Of a stretch of DNA of 64,000 nucleotides, positions 40,740 through 64,000 are shown in pieces (the first letter of the stretch is position 1; each line of letters starts with the position of its first letter). The DNA is from Craspedostauros australis. Its lineage: Eukaryota > Bacillariophyta > Bacillariophyceae > Mastogloiales > Achnanthaceae. The position numbers and the translations under genes were made by a program. The notes under the pieces were generated by a model. That model was not told the DNA's origin and did not search any database. It saw only the letters and a list, made by a program, of their open reading frames with translations. Location of the stretch: positions 24,070-88,069 of the forward strand of contig JAMXDE010000083.1 in NCBI GenBank assembly GCA_026770025.1. The letters run 5' to 3'.

Positions 40740-43205
40740 ACATCGATGCCCATGCTTGCCAACAGCATCGCATCGACAGCCAAATCCACTTCGATTGAAG
40801 CATGCCGTCCATGTTCATGCTCTCCAACAGCATCACATCGGCAGCCACAGCCGCATCCATTGAAGCATGCCGTCTATGTCCATGCTCTCCAACAGCATCA
40901 CATCGACAAACACATCCACTTCGATCCAATCATGCCGTCCATGTCCATGCTCTCCAACAGCATCACATCGACAAACACTTCGATTGAAGCATGCCATCCG
41001 TGTCCATGCTCTCCAACAGCATCACATCGACAAACACTTCGATTGAAGCATGCCGTCCATGTCCATGCTCTCCAACAGCATCACATCGACAGCCACATCC
41101 ACTTCGATCCAATCATGCCGTCCATGTCCATGCTCTCCAACAGCATCGCATCGACAGCCACATCCACTTCGATTGAAGCATGCCGTCCATGTCCATGCTC
41201 TCCAACAGCATCGACAGCCACATCCACTTCGATTGAAGCATGCCGTTCATGTCCATGCTCTCCAACAGCATCACATCGACAAACACATCCACTTCGATCC
41301 AAGCATGCCGTCTATGTCCATGCTCTCCAACAGCATCACATCGGCAGCCACAGCCGCATCCATTGAAGCATGCCGTCTATGTCCATGCTCTCCAACAGCA
41401 TCACATCGACAAACACAGTCGCATCGATCCAATCATGCCGTCCATGTCCATGCTCTCCAACAGCATCGCATCGACAAACACATCCACTTCGATCCAAGCA
41501 TGCCGTCCATGTCCATGCTCTCCAACAGCATCACATCGGCAACCACATCCACTTCGATCCAATCATGCCGTCCATGTCCATGCTCTCCAACAGCATCGCA
41601 TCGACAGCCACATCCACTTCGATCCAATCATGCCGTCCATGTTCATGCTCTCCAACAGCATCGCATCGACAGCCACATCCACTTCGATCCAAGCATGCCG
41701 TTCATGTCCATGCTCTCCAACAGCATCACATCGACAAACACATCCACTTCGATCCAAGCATGCCGTCTATGTCCATGCTCTCCAACAGCATCACATCGGC
41801 AGCCACAGCCGCATCCATTGAAGCATGCCGTCTATGTCCATGCTCTCCAACAGCATCACATCGACAAACACAGTCGCATCGATCCAAGCATGCCGTCCAT
41901 GTCCATGCTCTCCAACAGCATCACATCGGCAACCACATCCACTTCGATCCAATCATGCCGTCCATGTCCATGCTCTCCAACAGCATCGCATCGACAGCCA
42001 CATCCACTTCGATCCAATCATGCCGTCCATGTTCATGCTCTCCAACAGCATCGCATCGACAGCCACATCCACTTCGATCCAAGCATGCCGTTCATGTCCA
42101 TGCTCTCCAACAGCATCACATCGACAAACACATCCACTTCGATCCAAGCATGCCGTCTATGTCCATGCTCTCCAACAGCATCACATCGGCAGCCACAGCC
42201 GCATCCATTGAAGCATGCCGTCTATGTCCATGCTCTCCAACAGCATCACATCGACAAACACAGTCGCATCGATCCAAGCATGCCGTCCATGTCCATGCTC
42301 TCCAACAGCATCACATCGGCAACCACATCCACTTCGATCCAATCATGCCGTCCATGTCCATGCTCTCCAACAGCATCGCATCGACAGCCACATCCACTTC
42401 GATCCAATCATGCCGTCCATGTTCATGCTCTCCAACAGCATCGCATCGACAGCCACATCCACTTCGATCCAAGCATGCCGTTCATGTCCATGCTCTCCAA
42501 CAGCATCACATCGACAAACACATCCACTTCGATCCAAGCATGCCGTCTATGTCCATGCTCTCCAACAGCATCACATCGGCAGCCACAGCCGCATCCATTG
42601 AAGCATGCCGTCTATGTCCATGCTCTCCAACAGCATCGCACCGACAGCCACATCCACTTCGATTGAAGCATGCCGTCTGTGTCCAAGCTCGATGACAGCA
42701 TCGACAGCCACATCCACTTCGATTGAAGCATGCCGTCTGTGTCCAAGCTCGATGACAGCATCGACAGCCACATCCACTTCGATTGAAGCATGTCGTCCAT
42801 GTCCATGCTCTCCAACAGCATCACATCGACAGCCACATCCACTTCGATCCAAGCATGCCGTCCATGTCCATGCTCTCCAACAGCATCACATCGGCAACCA
42901 CAGTCGCATCGATTGAAGCATGCCGTCCATGTCCATGCTCTCCAACAGCATCGCATCGACAAACACATCCACTTCGATCCAAGCATGCCGTTCATGTCCA
43001 TGCTCTCCAACAGCATCACATCGACAGCCACATCCACTTCGATCCAAGCATGCCGTCCATGTCCATGCTCTCCAACAGCATCACATCGACAAACACAGTC
43101 GCATCGATCCAATCATGCCGTCCATGTCCATGCTCTCCAACAGCATCGCATCGACAAACACATCCACTTCGATCCAACCATGCCGTCCGTGTCCAAGCTC
43201 CACAA
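40740..43205. repeat. 65-bp satellite array with 390-bp higher-order repeats
   Basis: About 38 head-to-tail units, mostly 65 bp with a few of 59 bp. Each contains CCATGCTCTCCAACAGCATC and ends in CACTTCGATCCAAG-like sequence. A block of six units (390 bp) is repeated exactly at 41821-42210 and 42211-42600, with a preceding version that holds one extra unit. The period is not divisible by three and stops are rare, so long frames (up to about 540 codons) are open on both strands; these are artefacts. The last units decay at about 43205. Confidence 0.95.
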
Positions 43206-43379
43206 TAGCATCCACATTGATAGGTGGCCATTCACTGAAATAGTGTATAGATTCATTTCAATGTAATATCATCTTCTTGTCATTTTTTAGCATGACTTGT
43301 GACACCATCGTTTGTTTTTTGGTTTGGTGTGGCAAGTGTTTCATTTTTTGGTTTCCGTGAGGAATAGAGAGTTGTGTTG

Positions 43380-43640
43380 TATCCGTGAGGAAAATAAAAG
43401 GACTCGTGAGTCCGTTTAGCGCTAAGTGGACTCACCAATCCACTTGGCATTTTTGTTGCTTCGTAAGTGGACTCACCGATCCAGTTACGTAAGTGGACTC
43501 ACCAATCCACTTACGAGCACAAAATGACTCGTCAGATTACCCTCTCTCTGAGATTGGAATAGTTCGACTCGCCCAACATCCATCTTTTCACCGATTCCTC
43601 GTGATGTTTTACACACTGCGTGTTTTGTCGCGTTATTCTT
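43380..43640 (+). repeat. Left terminal inverted repeat of the defective element
   Basis: It contains three copies of AAGTGGACTCACC(A/G)ATCC, each forming a local inverted repeat with the following GGATTGGTGAGT-type complement, then the long shared block ending near TGTTTTGTCGCG. Confidence 0.88.
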
Positions 43641-44523
43641 CCAACCCAACAACACATGGTGCATTTCCCTCTCGTATTAATATTATAATAATAAAAACAA
43701 CAATAACAATAACCCACAACAATTAAACCCATAATAGGGAGTGCCCGAGGGCTATAGCCTCGCCCGCACATGCCTGGCTGCACCAGGTAGGTCAAGTATG
43801 TCACGAATATATGCACTCCTGTCATTTCCGCGTTTTAACAGCCACAGACCCAGGTGCCTGTACACTGCGCAACCTGGGGGGTTGTGAAGCCCCACACAGG
43901 GTGCTGGAGGTGGCCCTTGTATCCTGGAGCACCATCACCAGGCCACGATGCACGCACCCCCAGCTGACCCGCAGTGAGTCACCCCCATAGCCCATGTGCG
44001 AACGTGGGTGTCGCCGTCCGGACTCCTGGCCTCCTGTCCAATCCGATTCTGTCCAGTCCTGTAGTCACCCACACGCTCATCCCCCGTTGCCTGCCCTGCG
44101 CCATCAGACCGCTCAATGCTACCCTCCAGGCTGGACCTTCCACCACTCTGCGCACTTCCATAAAACGGAACTTTGTCTTGTACCACCCAACCAAATCACA
44201 GCAAGGCTTTCCAGGTGTCATCCTCTGTCACCACACCAGACTCGCCTCCGCAATGGGCCATGGCTTGATCCAACTGTTGCCAACCAGCGAAACCGAGTCT
44301 GCGCTCCGCAGCTTCATCGCTCGCCTCGCAATCTCCCTTTTGCATTGCCTGTCAGTGTCTTCTACACACCCGTTGGATTTCATCTTTCTCCATCTGCATC
44401 CGTTCCGATGTTCATTCCATCTGAACCCCTTCCGATCCTTGTTCCACACTGTCATCTGCATACCTACGAATCATTGCTGCCTTCTACACTATGTATCACT
44501 CTGCTGCATCATGCGTGCTTCAA

Positions 44524-46658
44524 CATCCCTTCTATCCCTCATGAAACGGAGTGTTGACTGGACTGATGACGACAGCGACGACAACCACCTCGACCCCAAC
44601 TGCGTTGACGACACCTTTGACAGTGATCGAGTACTTCGTTCTCCTGATGACTGAAAGCAACAAGGACACTCATAGCGTGTTGGAATCCAACGCCATCAGC
44701 GCTGATAACATTGATGCTGATGTTGATCGAAGTGGTGATTCCTACATTGCCAAGGGTGGATCATGAGGAAACCTTCTTCCATCCATGACAACGCCAACCA
44801 CCAATGCCTCTACCAACAATTTCAGCGCAACTACTGCAGGTGATGCTGCATCCACAACAAATACAAGCACTCCATGCAAAGAGCACAACCAATCAGAAGC
44901 AGAACGGCTGACAAGCATGGATCCTCGTTGGCTCCTTCTTGATCCCAAAAATGAAGAGTTCCCAGTTTCAGTGGGGAATGCCCATCGGTACACATACGAA
45001 TTGCTTCTTGATGAGGTTCATCAACTCAGCTGTACCACCACAGATTGTTGTGGTTCCCCAACTCATCCATTTCAATACCCAGTTGATCAGCCTGATCTTA
45101 GGTCTTGGATCTCTGCCTCGTCTTGGCATGGCAGCTCTCAGACATGTTGATCGCACTCCGCAAACGCAGAGTTCAGATCTATGAATCCGGTTGCATCGGA
45201 AGACGATGAGCAAGCATTGCAGACTGACAAGGTGGGAGCAGAGGAGGAGTATTCCACCAACAATCAATCCCACACCAGCATCATTGAAACGAACTAATCT
45301 ACACAAACTACTGCACCATCCGCAACACCAGCCGCAGCCAGTGATCCTCTGGTGGCCGGGTCGATGACCATGACAGCAGACGATGCAAATCTGGGCATGG
45401 CAGAGGTCCATTGCTCCGCAGACTTCCAGAACCTGAAGAGCAAAAAAACATGCCAAAACAGCGCTGATGTCATGGTTCATGACAGCACAGAAAGGTCGGG
45501 CGAACAGGTATGCCAGACTCGACCACATGAATGAGGAGCCGCTGATGCAAGTGGCAATGGACTGCCAGGGCATGCTTGGAGGAAGCAGCCAATTCAGTGC
45601 AGCATTTAGGGTGGGCCTGGTGAAGAAGGGCGGCAAAGGCTACACTTGCGCATCTGCCAACTTCATCGGTATTGTTGGGACCCCATAGGCGATGCAACAG
45701 ACAAAGCTGTTATCGTGGAAATGAAAACAAGGACAACAGCTGAAACGCAAAGGGAGGAAGAGGCGTATCAGACAAAAGCACACTGGGTCCATGGCATCCC
45801 AAGCACCATCCACATATTCTTGGAGTCGTGCAGCCCTTCATATTGAGCATTGATCAAAGCAAATGAAGAGATGCTGCAGGTTTCATATCACATTTATATA
45901 TGGTGTGAAAGGGAGTGTTTTGGTGATTGGTGAGTGTGTTTGCGTCACTCAGAACTGCTATTCCTACCTGCTCCTTCCTTTGAATCGCGATTACTACAAC
46001 CATGCCGGACTTTGTCCTCATGTCAACCAATACAATGTTTGTGCAATTCATTCCCTTTGTATGCTCGTCCTCCTCCCTGCATTCGGAGGAGGAGACAAAG
46101 CTGCCAAAACAATTGCAAGAGGGAGAGCACGTATCACGGTACAACCCGAACAGAAGAGGAACTTGTGTTGTATGTTCAGCCAGGACGAGATGGATTTGCC
46201 CTGGGTGCTACATTCATGCTTGTGGCTTCATGAAGCAGGAGAGACAGGAGTGGCTGAAGAAATGTGGCATCGCACCCACTGTGGCTTTGAAGAAAGTCGC
46301 AAAAGGAGAGGATGCGGTGATCATACAAAACTCTTGCCACCAAATTGCTCACCAAGATGAAGCAGGGTGGGCAGACAAGGTACAAGCGCAGCTTGGAAGA
46401 GAGAAGTTAGCAGCAGCAGTGCCGAATGCTGTGGAGACTGTACCTGCCAAAGGTGGAGAAGCAAATGGTAGTGGAGAAAAAACAGCAGGAACAACTGCAG
46501 GCACGGACAGCAAAGCACCTGCAATCGAAGAAACTATAAGAGGCGAGCAGCAACATGCGGAAGCAAGCCTCACACACACTTATCAAGAACCGATCGGAGA
46601 TAAGAGGAGAAATAATCCAGAGGAGAAGAAGCAGCAACCACCAAAGAGTAGGTCATGA
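44524..46658 (+). pseudogene. Broken, internally deleted copy of the piggyBac-like transposase/nuclease gene
   Basis: Fragments in changing frames align with the protein at 47824-52604. SEAERLTSMDPRWLLL with VSVGNAHRYTYELLL (about 44900-45010) matches its N-terminal SDAAKLASMSLKWKL region. HMNEEPLMQVAMD (about 45527) and AAFRVGLVKKGGKGYTCASA (about 45600) match the nuclease part, followed by VIVEMKTRTTAETQREEEA (about 45712). FIYGVKGSVLVIG (about 45890) matches the end of exon 2. RGTCVVCSARTRWICPGC (about 46160) matches the cysteine-rich tail. The segments carrying the three DDE aspartates (D1, D2 and KGGSD) were not found. Stops and shifts separate the blocks, so no complete protein can be made. 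The last block (46002-46658) is still open for about 218 codons. Confidence 0.68.
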
Positions 46659-47096
46659 ACGCTAGCCCTGGATGTAGTAGAGGAGAGACAATGAGCGTGT
46701 CGGAAGCAATGGAAGCTCTTCAACGAGAGGAAGATGAGGACGAATTTGATGGCGTGGATGCATCAACGGCAAAGTGGGCACGAACAAGCCAAGGCACCAC
46801 AGGAGTAGCAAGCGAGCTCAGTAGGACACAAACAATATGATCTGTGCATAGGTCGGCAGCCAAGGCAAGGCTGAACAACAGAACAGAATTGCTGTACTTG
46901 CACAGTCGAAATGGGCGGAAAAGAGTGAGATAGATGAACTAATAATAATGCGTGTAGCCCCAGGCTTCTGCCACAGTACATGTATGTGCAATATCCTCTA
47001 TAACGCTAGCACCAGACGTAGTACACACCACCAATACAACAAAGGTTACAACGCATTGGAAGGAGAAGCTGCAACGTCGGGACAGTTTATGTCGTA

Positions 47097-47346
47097 AGAA
47101 TAACACGACAAAACACGCAGTGTGTAAAACATCACGAGGAATCGGTGAAAAGATGGATGTTGGGCGAGTCGAACTATTCCAATCTCAGAGAGGGGGTAAT
47201 CTGACGAGTCATTTTGTGCTCGTAAGTGGATTGGTGAGTCCACTTACGTAACTGGATTGGTGAGTCCACTTACTGCGAAGGTGGCAAAATAAGTGGATCG
47301 GTGAGTCCACTTACGAGAACACCGCACAAAATTTTCCTTACGGGTA
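47097..47346 (-). repeat. Right terminal inverted repeat of the defective element
   Basis: Reverse complement of the left arm. A frame in this arm encodes the same peptide as one in the left arm (SEIGIVRLAQHPSFHRFLVM), which reflects the duplication and not a gene. Confidence 0.88.
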
Positions 47347-47560
47347 TTGGATCTCCTGCGGGGCGATCCCTTTTTTTTTGTTGAGATGTTGCGATGGATT
47401 GTTTCCAATTTGCTCAAATTGTTTTCCTGATCATGAGATGCTCTATAGTAACCTTGCGATTTTTTTCGCTACTTTGCGTTTACAAATTGTATTTGTTGTT
47501 TTCTTTGTTTTCTCGAGTTTATAATTCTTACGATCTCAGTCGAGAGCATTTGGTTCATCT

Positions 47561-47694
47561 GCCTTTCACGTGTATTCACGTGTTATTTTTGTGTTATGCC
47601 TTTCGCGTGTATCCACGTGTTATTTTTGATTTTGTGTTGCGCCTTTCGCGTGTATTCACGTGTTAATTTCATTTCCGTAGTTTGCCTTTCGCGT
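47561..47694. repeat. Short tandem repeats with CACGTG core
   Basis: Four diverged copies, spaced 37-43 bp, of GCCTTTCGCGTGTATTCACG followed by TGTTATTTTT. The GTGTATTCACGTG part is close to palindromic and contains the E-box CACGTG. The array lies about 130 bp downstream of the piggyBac-like gene stop. Confidence 0.85.
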
Positions 47695-47823
47695 TCATAA
47701 TCCGTTTGATTTTCGTGTCATTGTCTGTCTTCTGGCACAGATCTGTTGCATCTGCGTAGGTGAGCTGATATGCTATTGATGCTGCTTTTCCCTACTGTTG
47801 GCGCGGATCTCTCTGGAGTGCAT

Positions 47824-50800
47824 TCAGGTTGTGCGGTGTCGTTTCTTGCTGCGAGCCTTCTGTTCAGCGGCAAATTGAGCTGCCGCTCGTTTCTTCATCT
47901 CTGCCGCAGCCTTCCTGTTGTCTGCCTCCCTCCTTGCTTGCGATTCTTCTTCACCCTGTTTGTCATCTCCACCCTCTTGGGTTACTTGTGCTACTGCTGC
48001 TGCCGCTGCCCTGCCATCTGTTCCAGCTTCTTCAGCTGGTTCGTGACTGTTCTGAACTGCCACGACTGCAGGTTGAGCAGCCTTCTTCAATCCTTTCCCA
48101 ACCTTCGTGCACCATTTGGTGTCTCTGCTATGCAGGATGTGGTGGCATGTGTTGGGAATCTCCAGGACCCCATCTTTCGTGGATGCCTTCAACAGTGCCA
48201 GACGACCTGGGATGCCGCACTTCTCCATCCATGCAGACTTTGTCGGTGTGCCCACTCCGCAGACTGTCAGATGACATCCTGTGCAATATGATGTGACTTG
48301 CTGATTGCACACGACGCAGCTTCTCCTCTTGTTTGGAACCGTCACAAGGGTATGGTCCCCTTTGTACAAGCCTTCGATGAACAATGCCTCTGTTGCAGTC
48401 CTCTCAGTTGGGGTCTTCCCAAGGATGGCAAGCAACGGTTGTCGAGTCTCTGGTGCTCCATTCAATTTGAACTCACCGCCATTGCATGATTCGATGCTGC
48501 TGGGGAGATTCAGCTTTTCCCTAATGTGTCTGAGCCTCGTCTCGTCATTTGTTTCACGTGCCAGTCGGGTTTGAGTGTAAGCCACAGCCAAGTGGTGGGA
48601 TAGGCGTTTGGTAATGGCAGCAAGGGAGTCACGGTAGCTCCACTTCTTGTTCATCTTGTTCCGAAGATGGATCAACGATGGTGATCGATCGAGATCTGCA
48701 TTTGTCTCGATTGCCCTGTTGTCCGTGATCTGGATTAGCTTGTGCACGAGCGTCATCATCAGTTGCATCAGACGCGACACAAGTACGCATTGGAAGGAGA
48801 CTTTTGGGGGCTTCACCTTGTGCTGTTCCATCAATCTTGACATGATATCGGAACCACCCTTCATGATGTTCCATCTTGCTGCCAGCTTTGGAAGGAAGGT
48901 CTTGACACGAGGGACCGGGAAGGTGAGATTTTCACATCCTTTCCACATCATGAGCTGATGGAAGAGGTCATCCTCTGACATGTTCGGGAGGTGGGAGCCT
49001 TTGCCCTCGAAGTTGCCGCTGCCCGGATTGGATGACATGAACTGCCTCATGAGATCTTCAGATGGAGTTCGTCCCGGTGAATCTTCTTCGTATGCAAACT
49101 CGATCACAAGCTTGTACAGATCGTCAAGCACCAAGGCATAGGCTTCCATCAATGCAGGTGTGAATCTGGTCGCAACAGATCTGAGGATCTCGGCCCCGCT
49201 GTCACCTGCTTGCCATGCCGTTCCAATCAAGTATCACAAGTAGCAGAGTGAGCAACGAGTTAGTATGGTGTCAAAAGCATGCGAACATCGTGCATTGGTG
49301 GAAGCAGCATGGACCGGATCTCATCACACATAGTCAATGCCAATGCCATCGAACTTACCAATCACCATGAGTGCTCCACTGACACCGTAGACGAATGCAT
49401 GATGGAGCAACTGGAGTCTTTCGCCTTCCTTGCGGATCAATGCCCGAAAGATGTTGCTCTCTGAGTCTGCAAAGAGATGCAAGTTGGGATCCAACCTGTA
49501 TTGGCGTTGCACAGACAACTGATGCTCCTTCTCCTCCTCCTTGGTTTTGCGCGAGGCCCTGGTCTTCATCTCGACAACAAAGACCTCATCATCTTCATCG
49601 TTGGTGCTGTCTCCGACAACTGCAAGAAAGTCAACGGATGATCGAGCATAGGGCTTGTCTCCACGATGCACCAACCCTGCTGTGTATGCGGCCTTCACAC
49701 AGCTAGGATCTCCAGTCAATTCCGATATCTTTTCAGCTTTCTTCATGAGTGGCTGCTCATTGGTGTGGCCCAGTCTGGTGGCACGTCGCTCCTCACCAGT
49801 GAAAGGCTTCATGAACCATGTCTTCAGCGCCTCTTTCACCAAGGCCTCCTTCAGTGCCATCATGCCTCCGTCCTCTTCGTTATTCCTCACATCGTTGTTG
49901 CTGATGCCTTCGGTGTCGCCTTCGACATTGTGTCCGGTGGCAAGCATGACATCGGCTTCAACAGGAAGGGAAGCCAGAGAGTCGATGCCAATGCCATTGT
50001 CGGCCGATGGGAAACGGGCAAGATTGCTGGTGCTGTTGCCTTCAACATCGTCGTCGGAACCGTCCACCTCCAGATTGTCAAGAGCCGAAGTGATAGATGC
50101 TTTGTCATGCCGCACCAATGCCTTCATCATTTCACCCTTTGCCGGAAGATTGCCAGAGTTGGGGAATCTTGCCTTGTAGATTGCCGCCATGGTCTTTGGT
50201 GTCATGGCAACATACCGGCGATCCGGCTTCTGCTGTCGTTGGATCACAGTCCTGAGCTTCTTGTAGATACTGTCAGCTGTTTTTGGCTTGAATCCGCCAC
50301 AGAAGAGCACCACCAATTCAGTCACATCTTCGAGCAGCCAGTCGACAGGAGGATTGTCGCGATTCTGAAGAACTTGGGTGATTGTTTGCTCGATGGATTT
50401 TGAGTCTTCGGCATCATCTGTGAGGAGATTGAATCGCTCCCGTGCCCAATTCTTGACTTCACCTGTTCCGATCTCCACATGGGCTTGTTGCTTTCTGGCT
50501 TCAACGTCGATGCCCATGAATGTGGCAATGATTTCCCATGCCTGATGATGGAGAACATGGCCATTCGTCTCCTTGCACCACTCGGTGCTGGCCAGGACCA
50601 CGTTGATGATGTTGTGGACGGTGGAGCTTGTCAAGCAGAACTTTCGCAACATGAACCAAAGCGGATCTCGCTGTTCGCAGGTCATCCCAACAACATCAAG
50701 GTCACGAATCTTCTGTGCCCATCTCATCCTTGCCTTGTCTTCCGCATCATCCGCTGCCTGTGAGGCTTGTTTGGCAAGGGTGACGGCTGCCTTGACTGCA

Positions 50801-52604
50801 TCTGGGTCATTCGGTGCATTCTGGATGGCTTGAATTGCGTCGCCTCTGGCCTGAATTGCGAGCACCGCAGCAGGAGACTTCTCCAGGTTCACGACAGCTG
50901 CAGAGAAGTACTCTGGGAACTTCTCTGGATGAGCCAGAAGATCTGGGTGATTCGTGCGCTTGGCTTGAACGTGGCGAAGGTACATGATCTCCTCTTTCAC
51001 CTTTGCCATGGTGAGATCCCATTCGAACCTTCCAACTCCCGTCTTTGCCATCATGATCATCTTTCCGTTGTCTCGGAGACCATAGCAACAGTAGGTTGCA
51101 CCCTTCACCTTGTTGGAGGTGGCAAGGAAGAGTCTTGTGGGTTCTGTCACACTGATCATGAGTTGGTTTGGGTTGGTCCGGTACGTTCCATTGATGAATG
51201 GCATGTGTGGAGCCCTCTTGTGAGTGCCTTGAAGGTCCGCTCCACCTTCAACAAGACCCTGTGTGAGCTTGAGAGAGCCATATCCACGATCAGCAAGAAC
51301 TTCTGTGTTCTGCAAACCATTGGTGGTTTCGAATTGGGTCTTGATCAGAGCCAATGCGGTGCTCGTCTTGGTTTCCTGGATGACTTGGACTCCGCAAGGG
51401 ACCCCGGACATTGTCATTGCCAAGGTATCGATGGTGAATCTTTGCATGGACATTTCGCAAGTTCAAGAGATAGAGAAGAAACAAGATTCGACAAGAAAGA
51501 GAGGGATGCAGACATGCATGTGGTGCCTGTGAGATTCAAAATTATCGACAATTGTACAATCATGACATACATTCAATCCCATGATCCAAAAGCAGAGGTT
51601 GTGCACAGTACAACTCACCCCCATCTATTGGCCTTTGGATGCTTGTGCCGGGAGATGCCACTTCGCGATTTTTTGGTGCTCTCGCAGTGCACTTTATCAT
51701 CATCGATTGTCACAGTGCGTTGGCCGGCCATGCCTCTCACAACCAGTTGCTTCAAAGTGTGATTGCACTGAGCCTGGAGATCCTGCCAGAAGTAGTGAGC
51801 GTTGGACTCAATCTTGTTGCTGTCTGCATGGATTTTGCACCACCAATCATTGTACTCGGTCTTGCTCGGGGACCCCACTTTGGTGCTCAGCAAGCCCATG
51901 GTGTACATGTTTTTCGTAGATGTCCGGAAGGTTGACTGTGTGCTGAATGCAACCATGAACTGCAGGTACTCCAATGCATCCATCTTCACATCATCCTTTG
52001 CAAATGCTTCTGTGTACAGACGAGATGAGGTACCAAAGACAAGATCAATGATATCATTCGGTGTTGGGCGTTTGCTGTTGGTGAGCTTTTGCATTGATTT
52101 CCGAATGTGCACCATCTCCTTGTTCATGATGACTTTGCTGTCTGCACGGGCTTCACCAACTGTGACATGATGCTTCTCGTCCACCCCTGTCTGCAGCTTC
52201 CACTTCAGGCTCATGCTTGCCAGCTTTGCTGCATCGGATTTGGTGTTGCGGGTGGATGCAAGTGCAATTGTAGGAGTGGGATTGGCATTGTTGGTGTTCG
52301 AGATGTTGTTATCCTGCGTAGAAGCTGTATTTTCGTTCTCTTCTGATATGAGGTAGTTGCTGTTGGAGTTGGAGGTGCTACTCTTGGGATCTGTTGCATC
52401 CAAGTCATCTCCATTAGTGTCATCGTTGTCATCGTCCAGATCAAAGTCATCAGGAGTCCAAATGACTGTGTTGTCATCCGAAGGATGGACAACAGCATCT
52501 TCATCAAGTAGCTCCAAGTCTAGATTGTCTGGATCAATGCCTCCGTTGCTGTCATCATCCTCCCACAAGTCATCATTGCCTCCGAAAGCATGATCCAAAG
52601 ACAT
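47824..52604 (-). CDS. piggyBac-like transposase with a YqaJ-type nuclease inside the DDE core and a C-terminal cysteine-rich domain (3 exons)
   Basis: Exons: 51619-52604, 49359-51439 and 47824-49205. The introns are 179 and 153 bp with GTGAGT/GTAAGT donors and AG acceptors. All joins keep frame, giving about 1,482 aa. Residues 1-120 are acidic. The segment near 301 (VTIDDDKV ... HPKANRWG) fits the piggyBac D1 block. D379 in EVLADRGYGS followed by LQGTHKR fits D2. Residues about 585-980 look like a PD-(D/E)XK nuclease of the YqaJ/lambda-exonuclease group: WFMLRKFCLTSS, GHTNEQPLMKKAE (E890), SSVDFLAVV (D932) and VFVVEMKTR (E952, K954). Then ARWNIMKGGSDIMSRLMEQH (D1142) fits the piggyBac D3 block. 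A cysteine cluster (C1319, 1322, 1330, 1333, 1338) resembles the piggyBac zinc tail. The end is a Lys/Arg/Ala-rich helix. No stop or frameshift interrupts it. No matching terminal repeats or TTAA sites were found around it. Domain calls are by motif only. Confidence 0.78.
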
Positions 52605-52610
52605 GGTCAC

Positions 52611-53390
52611 TCAATAGATGTAACACAAATCTAAGAATCTTGCACAGGGCTGGCTGCGATGAACTAAGTTGAGGTACAAGTGGAATGTGGGGTAGATGAG
52701 TGCAGCAGCTCTATTTGTTCCAAAAGCTATTAATAGATCGATTTGATGATGATAGTGTTGTTGAGAGATTTGATCGATTCGTTGAGTCCCACAAGAGATT
52801 TTGAGTCACGGAAGAAATGTCCCCCTCCCAAATCTCGGTTCTGGCTCAGCAGTGGTTGGTGTGGACGGGCTTTCGATGTTCCCAAACGCGAGTCAACGTG
52901 GGTTGAGGCGTTTTATGACATGAGGAGGGTGTGGGGAATAATAATTTCATTCCAACAAATGGCTCCAAACCTCCAGACACAACCGTTGATTTCAGTGCAG
53001 GCAGAGACCAGTGACTTCAGAAACCATCCGTTGAGTTTGAAAACTTTTGCGTGGTGCGCATTACCAATACTCCCGTGATCATCCAAACACGAGTCCATCG
53101 TCCCAAACAGCAACAGCAAAAAACTCGGCGAGTGGTGCAAACGGAGTCCAGATTGAGCGTCAGACACAGGACCGTCACCACAACAATCGAAAAACTTGAT
53201 CATTATCACATCCGCATCCCAACCACATACACCGACATTGCATACATTACATCCATTGCGTCCATTGCACCATGACATCGCATCGACGCTCAGCAATTTC
53301 TTCATTTTGACCGTCGCATAAGCACCACATCACACCCATTGACCTTGGCATCTGCAAACAAGCAAAATGCATGAAGGCCAAAAAGCCCTC
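52611..53390. other. Spacer between the piggyBac-like gene and the satellite
   Basis: No gene seen. It contains the probable upstream region of the piggyBac-like gene. A TTAA at about 52728 has no counterpart with matching terminal sequence on the other side. The 50-bp satellite begins after about 53430. Confidence 0.5.
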
Positions 53391-53429
53391 GAATCCACAG
53401 ACGCGTCAGAACGCCCATACAGTCAAGAT

Positions 53430-56400
53430 CGCATCACACCCATTGGTCTCTCGCACCTGAACGACCATCCGCTCCAGATCGCATCACACCCATTGGTCTC
53501 TCCCATCTCAACGACCATCCGCTCCAGATCGCATCACACCCAATGGTCGGTTGCACCTGAACGACCATCCGCTCCAGATCGCATCACACCCAATGGTCGG
53601 TTGCACCTGAACGACCATCCGCTCCAGATCGCATCACACCCATTGGTCGATTGCACCTGAACGACCATCCGCTCCAGATCGCATCACACCCAATGGTCGG
53701 TTGCACCTGAACGACCATCCGCTCCAGATCGCATCACACCCAATGGTCGGTTGCACCTGAACGACCATCCGCTCCAGATCGCATCACACCCAATGGTCGG
53801 TTGCACCTGAACGACCATCCGCTCCAGATCGCATCACACCCAATGGTCGGTTGCACCTGAACGACCATCCGCTCCAGATCGCATCACACCCAATGGTCGG
53901 TTGCACCTGAACGACCATCCGCTCCAGATCGCATCACACCCATTGGTCGATTGCACCTGAACGACCATCCGCTCCAGATCGCATCACACCCAATGGTCGG
54001 TTGCACCTGAACGACCATTCGCTCCAGATCGCATCACACCCATCGGTCACTCCCACCTGAACGAGAATCCGCTCCAGATCGCATCACACCCATCGGTCTC
54101 TCGCACCTGAACGACCATCCGCTCCAGATCGCATCACACCCAATGGTCGGTTGCACCTGAACGACCATCCGCTCCAGATCGCATCACACCCATTGGTCGA
54201 TTGCACCTGGACGACCATCCGCTCCAGATCGCATCACACCCATTGATCGATTGCACCTGAACGACCATCCGCTCCAGATCACATCACACCCATCGGTCTC
54301 TCCCATCTGAACGAGAATCCGCTCCAGATCGCATCACACCCATCGGTCTCTCGCATCTGAACGACCATCCGCTCCAGATCGCATCACACCCATCGGTCTC
54401 TCGCACCTGAACGAGAATCCGCTCCAGATCGCAACACACCCATTCATTGATTGCACCTGGACGACCATTCGCTCCAGATCGCATCACACCCATCGGTCAC
54501 TCCCACCTGAACGAGAATCCGCTCCAGATCGCATCACACCCATCGGTCTCTCGCACCTGAACGACCATCCGCTCCAGATCGCATCACACCCAATGGTCGG
54601 TTGCACCTGAACGACCATCCGCTCCAGATCGCATCACACCCAATGGTCGGTTGCACCTGGACAAGTATCCGCTTCAGATCGCATCACACCCATCGGTCTC
54701 TCGCACCTGAACGACCATCCGCTCCAGATCGCATCACACCCATCGGTCACTCCCACCTGAACGAGAATCCGCTCCAGATCGCATCACACCCATCGGTCAC
54801 TCCCACCTGAACGAGAATCCGCTCCAGATCGCATCACACCCATCGGTCTCTCGCACCTGAACGAGAATCCGCTCCAGATCGCAACACACCCATTCATTGA
54901 TTGCACCTGGACGACCATTCGCTCCAGATCGCATCACACCCATCGGTCACTCCCACCTGAACGAGAATCCGCTCCAGATCGCATCACACCCATCGGTCTC
55001 TCGCACCTGAACGACCATCCGCTCCAGATCGCATCACACCCAATGGTCGGTTGCACCTGAACGACCATCCGCTCCAGATCGCATCACACCCAATGGTCGA
55101 TTGCACCTGAACGACCATCCGCTTCAGATCGCATCACACCCATCGGTCTCTCGCACCTGAACGACCATCCGCTCCAGATCGCATCACACCCAATGGTCGG
55201 TTGCACCTGAACGACCATCCGCTCCAGATCGCATCACACCCATTGGTCGATTGCACCTGGACGACCATCCGCTCCAGATCGCATCACACCCATTGATCGA
55301 TTGCACCTGAACGACCATCCGCTCCAGATCACATCACACCCATCGGTCTCTCCCATCTGAACGAGAATCCGCTCCAGATCGCATCACACCCATCGGTCTC
55401 TCGCATCTGAACGACCATCCGCTCCAGATCGCATCACACCCATCGGTCTCTCGCACCTGAACGAGAATCCGCTCCAGATCGCAACACACCCATTCATTGA
55501 TTGCACCTGGACGACCATTCGCTCCAGATCGCATCACACCCATCGGTCACTCCCACCTGAACGAGAATCCGCTCCAGATCGCATCACACCCATCGGTCTC
55601 TCGCACCTGAACGACCATCCGCTCCAGATCGCATCACACCCAATGGTCGGTTGCACCTGAACGACCATCCGCTCCAGATCGCATCACACCCAATGGTCGG
55701 TTGCACCTGGACAAGTATCCGCTTCAGATCGCATCACACCCATCGGTCTCTCGCACCTGAACGACCATCCGCTCCAGATCGCATCACACCCAATGGTCGA
55801 TTGCACCTGGACGAGAATCCGCTCCAGATCGCAACACACCCATTCGTTGATTGCACCTGGACGAGTATCCGCTCCAGATCGCATCACACCCATTGGTCAA
55901 TTGCACCTGGACGACCATCCGCTCCAGATCGCATCACACCCATCGGTCACTCCCACCTGAACGAGAATCCGCTCCAGATCGCATCACACCCATCGGTCTC
56001 TCGCACCTGAACGACCATCCGCTCCAGATCACATCACACCCATCGGTCTCTCCCATCTGAACGAGTATCCGCTCCAGATCGCATCACACCCAATGGTCGG
56101 TTGCACCTGAACGACCATCCGCTCCAGGTCGCATCACACCCATCGGTCACTCCCACCTGAACAAGAATCCGCTCCAGATCGCATCACACCCATCGGTCTC
56201 TCGCACCTGAACGACCATCCGCTCCAGATCACATCACACCCATCGGTCTCTCGCATCTGAACGACCATCCGCTCCAGATCGCATCACACCCATCGGTCAC
56301 TCCCACCTGAACGAGAATCCGCTCCAGATCGCATCACACCCATCGGTCTCTCGCACCTGAACGACCATCCGCTCCAGATCACATCACACCCATCGGTCTC

Positions 56401-59400
56401 TCCCATCTGAACGAGTATCCGCTCCAGATCGCATCACACCCAATGGTCGATTGCACCTGGACGAGAATCCGCTCCAGATCGCAACACACCCATTGGTCTC
56501 TCGCACCTGGACGACCATCTGCTCCAGATCGCATCACACCCAATGGTCGGTTGCACCTGAACGACCATCCGCTCCAGATCGCATCACACCCAATGGTCGG
56601 TTGCACCTGAACGACCATCCGCTCCAGATCGCATCACACCCATCGGTCTCTCGCACCTGAACGAGAATCCGCTCCAGATCGCAACACACCCATTCATTGA
56701 TTGCACCTGGACGACCATCCGCTCCAGATCGCATCACACCCATCGGTCACTCCCACCTGAACGACCATCCGCTCCAGATCGCATCACACCCATCGGTCTC
56801 TCGCACCTGAACGAGAATCCGCTCCAGATCGCAACACACCCATTCATTGATTGCACCTGGACGACCATCCGCTCCAGATCGCATCACACCCATCGGTTAC
56901 TCCCACCTGAACGAGAATCCGCTCCAGATCGCATCACACCCATCGGTCTCTCGCATCTGAACGACCATCCGCTCCAGATCGCATCACACCCATCGGTCAC
57001 TCCCACCTGAACGAGAATCCGCCCCAGATCGCATCACACCCATCGGTCTCTCGCACCTGAACGACCATCCGCTCCAGATCACATCACACCCATCGGTCTC
57101 TCCCATCTGAACGAGTATCCGCTCCAGATCGCATCACACCCAATGGTCGGTTGCACCTGAACGACCATCCGCTCCAGGTCGCATCACACCCATCGGTCTC
57201 TCCCATCTGAACGACCATCCGCTCCAGATCGCATCACACCCATCGGTCACTCCCACCTGAACGAGAATCCGCTCCAGATCGCATCACACCCATCGGTCTC
57301 TCGCATCTGAACGACCATCCGCTCCAGATCGCATCACACCCATCGGTCACTCCCACCTGAACGAGAATCCGCTCCAGATCGCATCACACCCATCGGTCTC
57401 TCGCACCTGAACGACCATCCGCTCCAGATCACATCACACCCATCGGTCTCTCCCATCTGAACGAGTATCCGCTCCAGATCGCATCACACCCAATGGTCGA
57501 TTGCACCTGGACGAGAATCCGCTCCAGATCGCAACACACCCATTGGTCGATTGCACCTGGACGACCATCCGCTCCAGATCGCATCACACCCATTGGTCAA
57601 TTGCACCTGGACGACCATCCGCTCCAGATCGCATCACACCCATTGGTCGATTGCACCTGGACAAGTATCCGCTCCAGATCGCATCACACCCATTGGTCTC
57701 TCGCACCTGGACGACCATCTGCTCCAGATCGCATCACACCCAATGGTCGGTTGCACCTGAACGACCATCCGCTCCAGATCGCATCACACCCAATGGTCGG
57801 TTGCACCTGAACGACCATCCGCTCCAGATCGCATCACACCCAATGGTCGGTTGCACCTGAACGACCATCCGCTCCAGATCGCATCACACCCATCGGTCTC
57901 TCGCACCTGAACGAGAATCCGCTCCAGATCGCAACACAACCCATTCATTGATTGCACCTGGACGACCATTCGCTCCAGATCGCATCACACCCATCGGTCA
58001 CTCCCACCTGAACGAGAATCCGCTCCAGATCGCATCACACCCATCGGTCTCTCGCACCTGAACGACCATCCGCTCCAGATCGCATCACACCCAATGGTCG
58101 GTTGCACCTGAACGACCATCCGCTCCAGATCGCATCACACCCATTGGTCGGTTGCACCTGGACAAGTATCCGCTTCAGATCGCATCACACCCATCGGTCT
58201 CTCGCACCTGAACGACCATCCGCTCCAGATCGCATCACACCCATCGGTCACTCCCACCTGAACGAGAATCCGCTCCAGATCGCATCACACCCATCGGTCA
58301 CTCCCACCTGAACGAGAATCCGCTCCAGATCGCATCACACCCATCGGTCTCTCGCACCTGAACGAGAATCCGCTCCAGATCGCAACACACCCATTCATTG
58401 ATTGCACCTGGACGACCATTCGCTCCAGATCGCATCACACCCATCGGTCACTCCCACCTGAACGAGAATCCGCTCCAGATCGCATCACACCCATCGGTCT
58501 CTCGCACCTGAACGACCATCCGCTCCAGATCGCATCACACCCAATGGTCGGTTGCACCTGAACGACCATCCGCTCCAGATCGCATCACACCCAATGGTCG
58601 ATTGCACCTGAACGACCATCCGCTCCAGATCGCATCACACCCATTGGTCTCTCGCACCTGGACGACCATCTGCTCCAGATCGCATCACACCCATCGGTCT
58701 CTCGCATCTGAACGAGTATCCGCTCCAGATCGCAACACACCCATTCGTTGATTGCACCTGGACGAGTATCCGCTCCAGATCGCATCACACCCATCGGTCA
58801 CTCCCACCTGAACGAGAATCCGCTCCAGATCGCATCACAACCCATCGGTCTCTCGCACCTGAACGACCATCCGCTCCAGATCACATCACACCCATCGGTC
58901 TCTCCCATCTGAACGAGTATCCGCTCCAGATCGCATCACACCCAATGGTCGGTTGCACCTGAACGACCATCCGCTCCAGGTCGCATCACACCCATCGGTC
59001 TCTCGCATCTGAACGACCATCCGCTCCAGATCACATCACACCCATCGGTCTCTCCCATCTGAACGAGAATCCGCTCCAGATCGCATCACACCCATCGGTC
59101 TCTCGCATCTGAACGACCATCCGCTCCAGATCGCATCACACCCATCGGTCACTCCACCTGAACGAGAATCCGCTCCAGATCGCATCACACCCATCGGTCT
59201 CTCGCATCTGAACGAGAATCCGCTCCAGATCACATCACACCCATCGGTCTCTCCCACCTGAACGAGAATCCGCTCCAGATCGCATCACACCCATCGGTCA
59301 CTCCCACCTGAACGAGAATCCGCTCCAGATCGCATCACACCCATCGGTCACTCCCACCTGAACGAGAATCCGCTCCAGATCGCAACACACCCATTCATTG

Positions 59401-62400
59401 ATTGCACCTGGACGACCATTCGCTCCAGATCGCATCACACCCATCGGTCACTCCCACCTGAACGAGAATCCGCTCCAGATCGCATCACACCCATCGGTCT
59501 CTCGCACCTGAACGACCATCCGCTCCAGAGCGCATCACACCCAATGGTCGGTTGCACCTGGACAAGTATCCGCTTCAGATCGCATCACACCCATCGGTCT
59601 CTCGCACCTGAACGACCATCCGCTCCAGATCGCATCACACCCATCGGTCACTCCCACCTGAACGAGAATCCGCTCCAGATCGCATCACACCCATCGGTCA
59701 CTCCCACCTGAACGAGAATCCGCTCCAGATCGCATCACACCCATCGGTCTCTCGCACCTGAACGAGAATCCGCTCCAGATCGCAACACACCCATTCATTG
59801 ATTGCACCTGGACGACCATTCGCTCCAGATCGCATCACACCCATCGGTCACTCCCACCTGAACGAGAATCCGCTTCAGATCGCATCACACCCATCGGTCT
59901 CTCGCACCTGAACGACCATCCGCTCCAGATCGCATCACACCCAATGGTCGGTTGCACCTGAACGACCATCCGCTCCAGATCGCATCACACCCATCGGTCA
60001 CTCCCACCTGAACGAGAATCCGCTCCAGATCGCATCACACCCATCGGTCTCTCGCACCTGAACGACCATCCGCTCCAGATCACATCACACCCATCGGTCT
60101 CTCCCATCTGAACGAGTATCCGCTCCAGATCGCATCACACCCAATGGTCGATTGCACCTGGACGAGAATCCGCTCCAGATCGCAACACACCCATTGGTCG
60201 ATTGCACCTGGACGACCATCCGCTCCAGATCGCATCACACCCATTGGTCGATTGCACCTGAACGACCATCCGCTCCAGATCACATCACACCCAATGGTCG
60301 ATTGCACCTGGACGAGAATCCGCTCCAGATCGCAACACACCCATTCGTTGATTGCACCTGGACGAGAATCCGCTCCAGATCGCATCACACCCATTGGTCG
60401 ATTGCACCTGGACGACCATCCGCTCCAGATCGCATCACACCCATTGGTCAATTGCACCTGGACGACCATCCGCTCCAGAGCGCATCACACCCATCGGTCT
60501 CTCGCACCTGAACGACCATCCGCTCCAGATCACATCACACCCATCGGTCTCTCGCATCTGAACGACCATCCGCTCCAGATCGCATCACACCCAATGGTCG
60601 GTTGCACCTGAACGACCATCCGCTCCAGGTCGCATCACACCCCATCGGTCACTCCCACCTGAACGAGAATCCGCTCCAGATCGCATCACACCCATTGGTC
60701 TCTCCCATCTCAACGACCATCCGCTCCAGATCGCATCACACCCAATGGTCGGTTGCACCTGGACGACCATCCGCTCCAGATCGCATCACACCCATTGGTT
60801 GATTGCACTGGACGACCATCCGCTCCAGATCGCATCACACCCAATGGTCAATTGCACCTGGACAAGTATCCGCTCCAGATCGCATCACACCCATTGGTCT
60901 CTCGCACCTGGACGACCATCTGCTCCAGATCGCATCACACCCATCGGTCTCTCCCATCTGAACGAGTATCCGCTCCAGATCGCATCACACCCAATGGTCG
61001 ATTGCACCTGGACGAGAATCCGCTCCAGATCGCAACACACCCATTGGTCGATTGCACCTGGACGACCATCCGCTCCAGATCGCATCACACCCATCGGTCA
61101 CTCCACCTGAACGAGAATCCGCTCCAGATCGCATCACACCCATCGGTCTCTCGCACCTGGACGACCATCCGCTCCAGATCACATCACACCCATCGGTCTC
61201 TCCCATCTGAACGAGTATCCGCTCCAGATCGCATCACACCCAATGCTCGATTGCACCTGGACGAGAATCCGCTCCAGATCGCAACACACCCATTGGTCGA
61301 TTGCACCTGGACGAGAATCCGCTCCAGATCGCATCACACCCCATGGTCAATTGCACCTGGACAAGTATCCGCTCCAGATCGCATCACACCCATTGGTCTC
61401 TCGCACCCTGAACGACCATCTGCTCCAGATCGCATCACACCCATCGGTCTCTCGCATCTGAACGAGTATCCGCTCCAGATCGCAACACACACCCATTCGT
61501 TGATTGCACCTGGACGACCATCCGCTCCAGATCGCATCACACCCAATGGTCGATTGCACCTGGACGAGAATCCGCTCCAGATTGCATCACACCCATTGGT
61601 CGATTGCACCCTGGACGACCATCCGCTCCAGATCGCATCACACCCATCGGTCACTCCCACCTGAACGAGAATCCGCTCCAGATCGCATCACACCCATCGG
61701 TCTCTCGCACCTGAACGACCATCCGCTCCAGATCACATCACACCCATCGGTCTCTCCCTATCTGAACGAGTATCCGCTCCAGATCGCATCACACCCATCG
61801 GTCACTCCCACCTGAACGAGAATCCGCTCCAGATCGCATCACACCCATCAGTCTCTCGCACCTGAACGACCATCCGCTCCAGATCACATCACACCCATCG
61901 GTCTCTCCCATCTGAACGAGTATCCGCTCCAGATCGCATCACACCCAATGCTCGATTGCACCTGGACGAGAATCCGCTCCAGATCGCAACACACCCATTG
62001 GTCGATTGCACCTGGACGACCATCCGCTCCAGATCGCATCACACCCAATGGTCAATTGCACCTGGACAAGTATCCGCTCCAGATCGCATCACACCCATTG
62101 GTCTCTCGCACCTGGACGACCATCTGCTCCAGATCGCATCACACCCATCGGTCTCTCGCATCTGAACGAGAATCCGCTCCAGATCACATCACACCCATCG
62201 GTCTCTCCCATCTGAACGAGTATCCGCTCCAGATCGCATCACACCCAATGCTCGATTGCACCTGGAAGAGAATCCGCTCCAGATCGCATCACACCCAATG
62301 GTCAATTGCACCTGGACGACCATCCGCTCCAGATCGCATCACACCCATTGGTCTCTCGCACCTGGACGACCATCTGCTCCAGATCGCATCACACCCATTG

Positions 62401-62870
62401 GTCTCTACCATCTCAACGAGAATCCGCTCCAGATCGCATCACACCCATTGGCCAATTGCACCTGGACGACCATCCAGTCAAGATCGCATCACACCCATTG
62501 GTCGATTGCACCTGGACGAGAATCCGCTCCAGATCGCATCACACCCATTGGTCGATTGCACCTGGACGACCATTCCGCCTCCAGATCGCATCAACACACC
62601 CATTGGTCTCTCGCATCTGAACACCCATCCGCTCCAGATCGCATCACACCCAATGGTCTCTCGCACCTGGACGACCATCCGCTCCACATCACATCACACC
62701 CATCGGTCTCTCCCACCTGAACGAGAATCCGCTCCAGATCACATCACACCCATCGGTCTCTCGCGTCTCAACGCCATCCGCTCCAGATTGAATCACATCC
62801 ATAGGTCTCTCGCATCTGAACGCCTATCCACTCCAGATCACATCACATCCATCAGGCTCTTGCATCTGCA
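53430..62870. repeat. 50-bp satellite array, about 188 units, with higher-order structure
   Basis: Head-to-tail 50-bp units with a constant core (CCGCTCCAGATCGCATCACA) and two variable boxes. One box is ACGACCATCC, ACGAGAATCC or ACGAGTATCC. The other is CAATGGTCGG, CATTGGTCGA, CATCGGTCTC or CATCGGTCAC. A run of about 13 units near 54110-54750 recurs 1,050 bp later, and part recurs again about 3.5 kb later (near 58,100). Single-base insertions reset the register at a few places (for example near 57938, 58840, 61400). Units decay from about 62570 to 62870. The period is not a multiple of three, and the rarity of stops leaves overlapping frames open; none is treated as coding. Confidence 0.96.
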
Positions 62871-62879
62871 TCCACCATT

Positions 62880-64000
62880 CATCGCATGCATGTTTTGATG
62901 CACCACACTTTTGTCAAATCAATAGCACTTGCTGTCACGTTTTGGCACTCCAGTGTGAGACTTGTTAGCTTGGACAGTTCAGTCCAGAGCAACATTGCAT
63001 TAGATCCAAGAAGCGCTTATCATGCTATGTGTCAGCGGCAGGATCATTCGAAAAGAACATGAAGTGTGACATGCGAACACCTCCACTGGCGATGTATAAG
63101 AATATTGAATTTAATTTAAATTGACTTTAAATGTAACATCATTCCCGATGATAACATGAGGTGTGCTCCCCAAAACTATGGAGGGGCATCATACAGCTGT
63201 CACTTCGTCATCCCAAGATGATGTGTGCCATCAAGTCATTCCTTCCACTACTTGCCACATTGTCTCCATATACCCTAAACATAGCCACCCGTGACAAGCA
63301 TGCCACATTATATCGCCATGCAATGCACATTGTCAGTCCCACAGTTGAAAACCAATATGTTTGGCAAGGAAGGTCGATCCGGAGGTGGCTGCTGTGCTGG
63401 ATCATATCTCTTGCTCGCAACCATGTCAGTTCTCCTCATGCAGCACACCCCAGAACCTGATGTATTGAGGACACCCTGATGTATCCCAAATTGCTCCAAG
63501 TTGCATCTCTGCAATTCAATCCATCCTGATGCTGGTGCCATTGTTCAGTTGTCTGTCATGTCAATAACATGCATTTGCTGCATTTGATCGATTGCCACCT
63601 CTTCCATTCAATAAATCTAATCCGCACTTCTCCATCCCATTCGTGGCTTGATGCTTCACATAGCTTGCATGGGTGGGTTGCAATGTGATGGATGTTCATA
63701 TGCACCACCACCACAGAAAAAGTCATGTGATAGGTGCTTCATCATCCCTTGGAAACCGATTGGTCCTCCGCTTGTTCCTTTCTGTCAATACTTTCCGCGC
63801 CAGCCTTTCAACCTCAAACTTCGTAGGAACCTCCACTTTATTCCTTTGATGCGTCTGCTCATCCATAGTTGTTGGAATGTCAATGTGGAGGTGGGTTGTC
63901 TGGCGGGCGCGGGCGAGAGTGTCCTTGCAGAGGAGCACGTCCTACCGGGCTATAATTATTGGGGAGCAAGTGTCATTTCATCGTCAGTCCAAGCTGCAAA
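62880..64000. other. Right edge of the window, no confident gene
   Basis: Short frames only. A 71-codon minus frame (63723-63938) contains a basic helical end (MDEQTHQRNKVEVPTKFEVE then RLARKVLTERNKRRTNRF) that could be a first exon, but no continuation was found. An AT-rich block lies at 63090-63140. A sequence resembling the arm of the 20.7-22.7 kb insert (GCGAACACCTCCACTGG) occurs near 63074. Confidence 0.35.

Follow-up and report, generated by a model that had tools for sequence, protein, structure and literature searches.

A predicted lambda-exonuclease-type nuclease between the second and third catalytic aspartates of a piggyBac-like transposase in Craspedostauros australis

Transposases of the DDE/D type leave a double-strand break behind them, and the repair of that break decides whether a copy is gained or lost. 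The TnsA/TnsB pair of Tn7 couples a restriction-type PD-(D/E)XK nuclease to a DDE transposase. Among other cut-and-paste families, piggyBac elements have ends that begin with CC, and Sola elements make duplications of four base pairs (bp). According to passages of PMC7351741, the insertion domain of piggyBac transposase takes part in forming the channel for the DNA and the target. Two further systems are described, in passages of the papers cited, as pairing a transposase with a nuclease: ISL2EU, a Harbinger-like DDE transposon, encodes a YqaJ nuclease in a separate open reading frame (PMC4482050, PMC9179366), the role of which is given as unknown (PMC4482050), and KolobokP, a DDD/E transposon, carries an added His-Me finger homing endonuclease (PMC9587614). 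Here, we analyze a stretch of 64,000 nucleotides of the Craspedostauros australis genome (contig JAMXDE010000083.1, positions 24,070 to 88,069; hereafter the window), in which a gene on the minus strand encodes a piggyBac-like transposase with a predicted YqaJ/lambda-exonuclease-type nuclease between its second (D2) and third (D3) catalytic aspartates.

The gene extends from an ATG at position 52604 to a stop codon that finishes at 47824, and its three exons (Table 1) are predicted to splice into a single frame of 1482 amino acids. From the N-terminus onward, the protein contains the first aspartate block (D1), the D2 block, a strand-rich part, motif I of the nuclease, a SAP-like region, a variable linker, the nuclease core, D3 and a cysteine cluster (residues 1316–1339) that is also present in relatives. 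A single protein thus carries two distinct groups of conserved catalytic-type residues, and the nuclease group falls between D2 and D3. The D2–D3 spacing is 763 residues, compared with 124 in the three classical piggyBac genes that we measured in the same genome. A preliminary description of the window had reported a nuclease-like domain between the second and third aspartates, with D1 and D2 in the first 410 residues, D3 at residue 1142, a cysteine cluster like the piggyBac tail behind it, and introns of 179 and 153 bp; each of these observations is confirmed, and splicing out the two introns yields one open frame.

The nuclease core contains the motifs LGHTNEQ (residues 885–891), SSVDFL (929–934), VVEMKTR (within 948–957) and QLLHH (from 1005). 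We built a nuclease profile from 19 members, 15 from the diatom's own genome (17 loci were tried, and L018 and L048 excluded) and four from outside it; three members, L049, P0002 and P0010, entered without motif I (L handles denote loci of this genome and P handles outside proteins). When compared by hhalign with 12 YqaJ-family sequences, this profile aligned at P = 7e-6 with the E, D, E-x-K and Q residues in order. Control comparisons gave P values of 0.33 (PDDEXK_1), 0.46 (Mrr_cat) and 0.21 (RNase_T), the best of 50 column shuffles reached 0.066, and the own-genome members alone gave 0.0086 against YqaJ. Weak library matches fall in the same place. Two of the eight proteins scanned, window exon 2 and L033, matched the lambda-exonuclease family TIGR03033 (E = 0.0037 and 0.02, respectively; at 17.4 bits vs 68.05, the curated cut-off is missed by far), and the same two matched the RecE-like exonuclease phrog_434 over overlapping stretches (E = 0.0034 and 0.018). 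At motif I, L033 also touched Viral_alk_exo (E = 0.16). The profile comparison with its controls, these matches, conservation across the family and the relatives in other protists together support assignment of the domain that separates D2 from D3 to the YqaJ/lambda-exonuclease type of nuclease.

One result weighs against this assignment: the best Pfam score of window exon 2 belongs to Imm49 (E = 0.0016, below cut-off). The YqaJ/lambda-exonuclease-type motifs named in the preliminary description were borne out by hhalign, but Pfam scans of the three window exons and 20 further proteins returned neither YqaJ nor DDE_Tnp_1_7, the piggyBac family, over cut-off (best E for the latter, 0.031, in P0006). 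A search of the diatom's own genome with PF09588 found two other genes, and the nested-nuclease family was absent from its matches. These two YqaJ-family genes, in a 365-residue frame (C25:34761-35165, E = 1.6e-17) and a 703-residue frame (C37:237978-238205, E = 0.006), lack the transposase blocks and were rejected as family members. The AlphaFold models of P0001 and window exon 2, with a mean predicted local distance difference test score of 45.5 and 42.3, respectively, are too poor to confirm a nuclease fold. Foldseek found no match to either model at E 0.001, the exon-2 rows being regarded as noise, and VIA-align of the low-confidence P0001 model found no lambda-exonuclease-type chain, a result that is uninformative on such a model. 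PDB sequence searches with two alignments (A1 and A2) returned nothing relevant.

The nuclease itself appears to be interrupted, by a region of SAP or SAP-like character and a variable linker. The preliminary description overlooked this feature, as it did the second element inserted in the 3′ flank and the two minisatellites on either side of the gene (Table 1). Because motif I maps to positions 18–44 of the YqaJ profile, ahead of the 70–168 matched by the rest of the nuclease, the domain appears to be split by the SAP part. PF02037 (SAP) scored over cut-off in P0006 and P0007 and below it in P0010, and the Pfam scan gave no SAP match in the window copy.

The same arrangement recurs throughout the genome. 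Using exon 2 as a query, we obtained at least 108 matches at a minimum of 57 places, with the D2 side at 54 or more, the nuclease to its end at 47 or more and both at 44 or more, all of these counts being lower bounds. At 40 of the 44 places that have D2 and the nuclease, the D1 and D3 exons lie on opposite sides of exon 2 and within 2 kb of it, as judged from the strongest 51 of 97 exon-3 matches and 67 of 69 exon-1 matches and by comparing sides, not strands. The D1–D2–nuclease–D3 order is beyond chance because it is repeated at these 40 places. The four exceptions (C3:3614824, C14:1323773, C13:230851 and C55:119775) each have just one of the two flanking exons within 2 kb; a match for the other, of unverified belonging, lies 7–17 kb away on the same contig. 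Judged by eye, the copies form at least five subfamilies.

Relatives also occur in other protists, including Plasmodiophora brassicae and Phytophthora palmivora; the preliminary description had proposed a search of other stramenopile genomes. When exon 2 was searched against a database of 5.8 billion proteins, a single match was found among 7990 scored candidates, the Plasmodiophora brassicae protein P0001, annotated as SAP domain-containing; with P0001 as the query, there were 11 matches, including itself, of 7993 scored. A single protein record, P0001, joins D1, D2, the SAP-like region and the nuclease; another, P0006, joins D1, D2, SAP and the nuclease, and P0002 (Plasmodiophora brassicae) contains the nuclease, KGGQD and the cysteine cluster. 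In P0010 (Phytophthora palmivora; a record flagged as low quality), D1 and D2 are accompanied by a weak SAP stretch and the nuclease, and in P0011 by motif I and the nuclease as far as its S-P-D motif. P0007 and P0008 stop shortly past the G..NE motif, and no clear nuclease is seen in P0003, P0004, P0005 or P0009. A homologous-protein search with alignment A1 found none among 7995 scored candidates, and the viral contigs searched gave no match. At residues 52–98 of P0010 there is also a FLYWCH-like N-terminal zinc finger (E = 0.00037, just under cut-off). Given these relatives, the arrangement would either have arisen before these lineages separated or have passed from one to another.

The window copy is split by two introns, and its splicing is predicted from sequence, as would be expected if neighboring genes or an accident of annotation mimicked a nested nuclease. 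Three observations speak against this explanation, which we regard as scarcely credible. D2 and the nuclease share one unbroken exon-2 frame in many copies. The position of intron 1 is kept, with a GT donor directly after NRxG codons at 12 of 14 loci (the exceptions, L043 and L048, do not pass the filter) and an approximate length of 94–179 bp at the 11 loci where an acceptor was identified. Finally, single records unite D1, D2 and the nuclease (P0001, P0006) or the nuclease and D3 (P0002). The nested architecture is very probably real.

We next consider whether the nuclease is maintained as an enzyme. The ratio of nonsynonymous to synonymous differences (pN/pS) among eight close copies, whose exon 2 sequences are 93–97% alike, stands at 0.24 in the D2 part and 0.23 in the middle, rises to 0.55 in the linker and falls back to 0.21 in the nuclease; nine copies of another subfamily gave 0.18, 0.33 and 0.26 for the D2 part, middle and nuclease, respectively. 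The motifs DRG, WFMLRKF.LTS, NE, SVDFL, VEMKT and QLLHH are kept in 17 of 17 copies, and the nuclease G..E, S.D and E.K residues are invariant in all seven distant rows. By these measures, the nuclease is kept by selection. It is quite unlikely that the insert lacks catalytic activity and serves, as an elaborated insertion domain, to bind DNA or choose the target, since its catalytic-type motifs are invariant and its pN/pS is as low as that of the D2 part, even though the piggyBac insertion domain contributes to the DNA and target channel (passages of PMC7351741) and the insert of relatives contains a SAP domain.

A nuclease with no part in transposition could instead serve defense or repair, acting on competing elements, viruses or broken ends. 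YqaJ-type nucleases elsewhere serve phage recombination. The separate YqaJ protein of ISL2EU, of unknown role in the passages of PMC4482050, would suit such a function as well. In the present family, however, the nuclease lies inside the catalytic core and not in a gene of its own, and the order recurs at 40 of 44 places, making this alternative improbable.

The transposase blocks indicate a relationship to piggyBac, with qualifications. In a motif alignment, D1, D2 and D3 are collinear with D268, D346 and D447 of piggyBac; DRG and THKR of the D2 block are invariant in 7 of 7 rows, and KGGSD at D3 in 6 of 6. The D1–D2 profile aligned with piggyBac at P = 0.001, D on D, and the best VIA-align match for the transposase part of the P0001 model is piggyBac transposase. 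The D3 piece alone aligned KGGSD to GGVD at P = 0.10, no better than shuffles. (The DDD profile excluded L048 and L049 and did not include P0002 or P0010.) The TTAA duplication expected of piggyBac is absent from the sister subfamilies and decayed kin, where ATAT or GTAT occurs. Because of these target sites and the lack of a DDE_Tnp_1_7 match over cut-off, the label needs a qualifier, and we use piggyBac-like. The D2 region of a sister copy, L027, matched the IS4-type family PF01609 (DDE_Tnp_1) at E = 1.2e-4 and 22.4 bits, for a cut-off of 23. A closer kinship to Sola or IS4-type families would be compatible with these data. Separately, a DDE_Tnp_1_7 N-terminal match (C22:47297-47572, E = 2.8e-9) lies about 3 kb ahead of an exon-3 match on the same strand (C22:50376-51569); this locus is perhaps a member that links the nested-nuclease family to the Pfam piggyBac family.

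Evidence on mobility comes mainly from sister subfamilies and a decayed relative. The copies compared are 89–98% alike in DNA and lie at unlinked sites. Subfamily E (L045 and L046; 9.1 and 8.8 kb) has ends reading CCATAATGA or CCCTAATGA with ATAT on both sides, and subfamily B (L042 and L043) has ends reading CCGTAAGGAA or CCGTGAGGAA between ATAT, where a duplicated ATAT is indistinguishable from element ends that themselves read ATAT. The decayed element in the 3′ flank of the window gene has ends CCGTGAGG.../...CCTTACGG and contains nuclease-like and cysteine-cluster fragments at 44767–46660 on the plus strand. The flank of the gene resumes to its left, and copy L039 preserves the uninterrupted site, with GTGT where the window has GTAT and 63 of 64 left-side bases matching. 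This single GTAT case points to a 4-bp target duplication, and because of it we replaced an initial TA duplication in the sister families by RTAT. Position 47344, considered as an end of the window element, was rejected as the junction of this insertion, and a search for the terminal repeats and ends of the window's own subfamily did not recover any. An Rfam search of 43000–53500 gave no match. The right part of the window (62868–64000) reaches the end of contig C81 (88069 bases), and C3, C27 and C58 each carry copies no more than about 17 kb from where the contig begins; these positions hint at a subtelomeric bias.

Table 1. Coordinates of features in the window
Feature	Position	Strand	Details
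Exon 1	51619..52604	-	low-complexity acidic N-terminus, pre-D1 region, D1; D1 exon beside exon 2 in other copies
D1 TIDDDKV	51710-51690	-	residues 299-305, exon 1
Intron 1	51440..51618	-	179 bp, GTGAGT..AAAG
Exon 2	49359..51439	-	D2 block, motif I, SAP-like region, variable linker, nuclease core
D2 block LADRGYGS..QGTHKR	51214..51297	-	LADRGYGS residues 377-384; GTHKR ends at residue 404
Motif I DPLWFMLRKFCLTSS	50623..50667	-	residues 587-601; alone maps to YqaJ profile 18-44, P 0.026
SAP-like region	50113..50220	-	about residues 736-771; assigned by position; relatives P0006 and P0007 score over cut-off for SAP
Nuclease core	49359..49830	-	residues 866-1023; WFMKP, G..NE, S-V-D, V-E-M-K, QLLHH; last residues in exon 3
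Intron 2	49206..49358	-	153 bp, GTAAGT..GCAG
Exon 3	47824..49205	-	D3 block MKGGSD.. (48864-48820) and cysteine cluster (48327-48256)
D3 block MKGGSD	within 48864-48820	-	residues 1137-1142, D3 = 1142
Second, decayed element, same superfamily	43379..47347	+	inserted in the gene's 3′ flank; GTAT at 43379-43382 and 47344-47347
Minisatellite upstream of gene	53426-62868		50-bp units, about 189 copies; also in copy L039
Minisatellite on other side of gene	40746-43217		65-bp units, about 38 copies; common to L039; L040, L041 with other repeats there

Our best explanation, to which we assign a probability of about 0.5, is that the gene product would be a cut-and-paste transposase of a piggyBac-related lineage with a nested nuclease that acts on the 5′-ended strand at excision breaks. 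An active-site-bearing YqaJ/lambda-exonuclease-type nuclease would have entered the DDD core close to the point where piggyBac and Tn5 carry an insertion domain, and a SAP-type DNA-binding domain inserted in turn into the nuclease. Cutting and joining of the transposon ends would fall to the DDD core, because its catalytic residues are conserved and sister subfamilies have terminal repeats and duplications. Trimming or resection by the nuclease may then direct repair of the donor break into homologous recombination, a route by which the copy can be restored, or may clear the non-transferred strand. The catalysis, substrate and role of the nuclease are read from sequence, and a trimming or resection role in particular is tentative.

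An alternative borrowed from Tn7, where TnsA and TnsB divide the work in this way, is that the nuclease cuts the 5′ non-transferred strand, leaving the DDD core to cut and join the 3′ strand; this scheme would take the place of the hairpin step of piggyBac. The invariance of the nuclease motifs would fit such a division, as would the neighboring element's GTAT target, which is not palindromic, unlike TTAA. We favor trimming or resection because the family relationship points to end-dependent exonucleases, as does motif I, whose place in lambda exonuclease is at the 5′ end of the substrate. The relationship found, in a comparison that covered YqaJ, PDDEXK_1, Mrr_cat and RNase_T, is to YqaJ and lambda exonuclease, and the retained motif I better suits end-dependent digestion, so that a TnsA-like cut is unlikely.

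More broadly, these elements may form a piggyBac-related, RTAT-targeting superfamily of stramenopile and rhizarian protists in which one enzyme combines strand transfer with lambda-exonuclease-type resection and so couples excision to the choice of donor repair, a proposal that is rather doubtful as a whole. If true, its core would be interlocked, with the DDD part around the nuclease and the nuclease around SAP; it would be a eukaryotic parallel to bacterial transposase–nuclease partnerships, and it would allow a direct test of whether an element itself steers repair of the donor break.

The protein resembles piggyBac transposase (PDB 6x67) in its D1–D2–D3 order, the GT.KR block after D2, GG.D at D3 and the C-terminal cysteine cluster, and sister subfamilies share apparent 4-bp target duplications and ends starting with CC. 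It differs in the ATAT or GTAT sites of the sister elements, instead of TTAA, and in the nuclease and SAP-like region inside its core. With YqaJ, lambda exonuclease and RecE (PF09588, TIGR03033, phrog_434), it shares the collinear W..R..TSS, G..E, S.D, E.K and Q motifs, whereas here the nuclease is split by SAP and linker, lies within a transposase and scores under curated cut-offs. IS4-type elements are touched by one sister copy at PF01609, and Sola elements likewise make 4-bp duplications. TnsA/TnsB and TnsAB are bacterial, separate proteins or an end-to-end fusion, and of restriction-type fold. Like the preliminary description, which knew of no example, our literature search, with most subscription journals and Repbase outside it, found no nuclease inside a piggyBac-like core among the matches listed. 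ISL2EU and KolobokP, as presented in the passages cited above, belong to other transposase superfamilies; those on KolobokP describe no core insertion, and unlike in ISL2EU, the nuclease here shares a frame with D2 and lies inside the DDD core. DDE transposons with a separate nuclease are thus known, and what appears to be new is a predicted nuclease lodged between the D2 and D3 blocks of a DDD cut-and-paste transposase.

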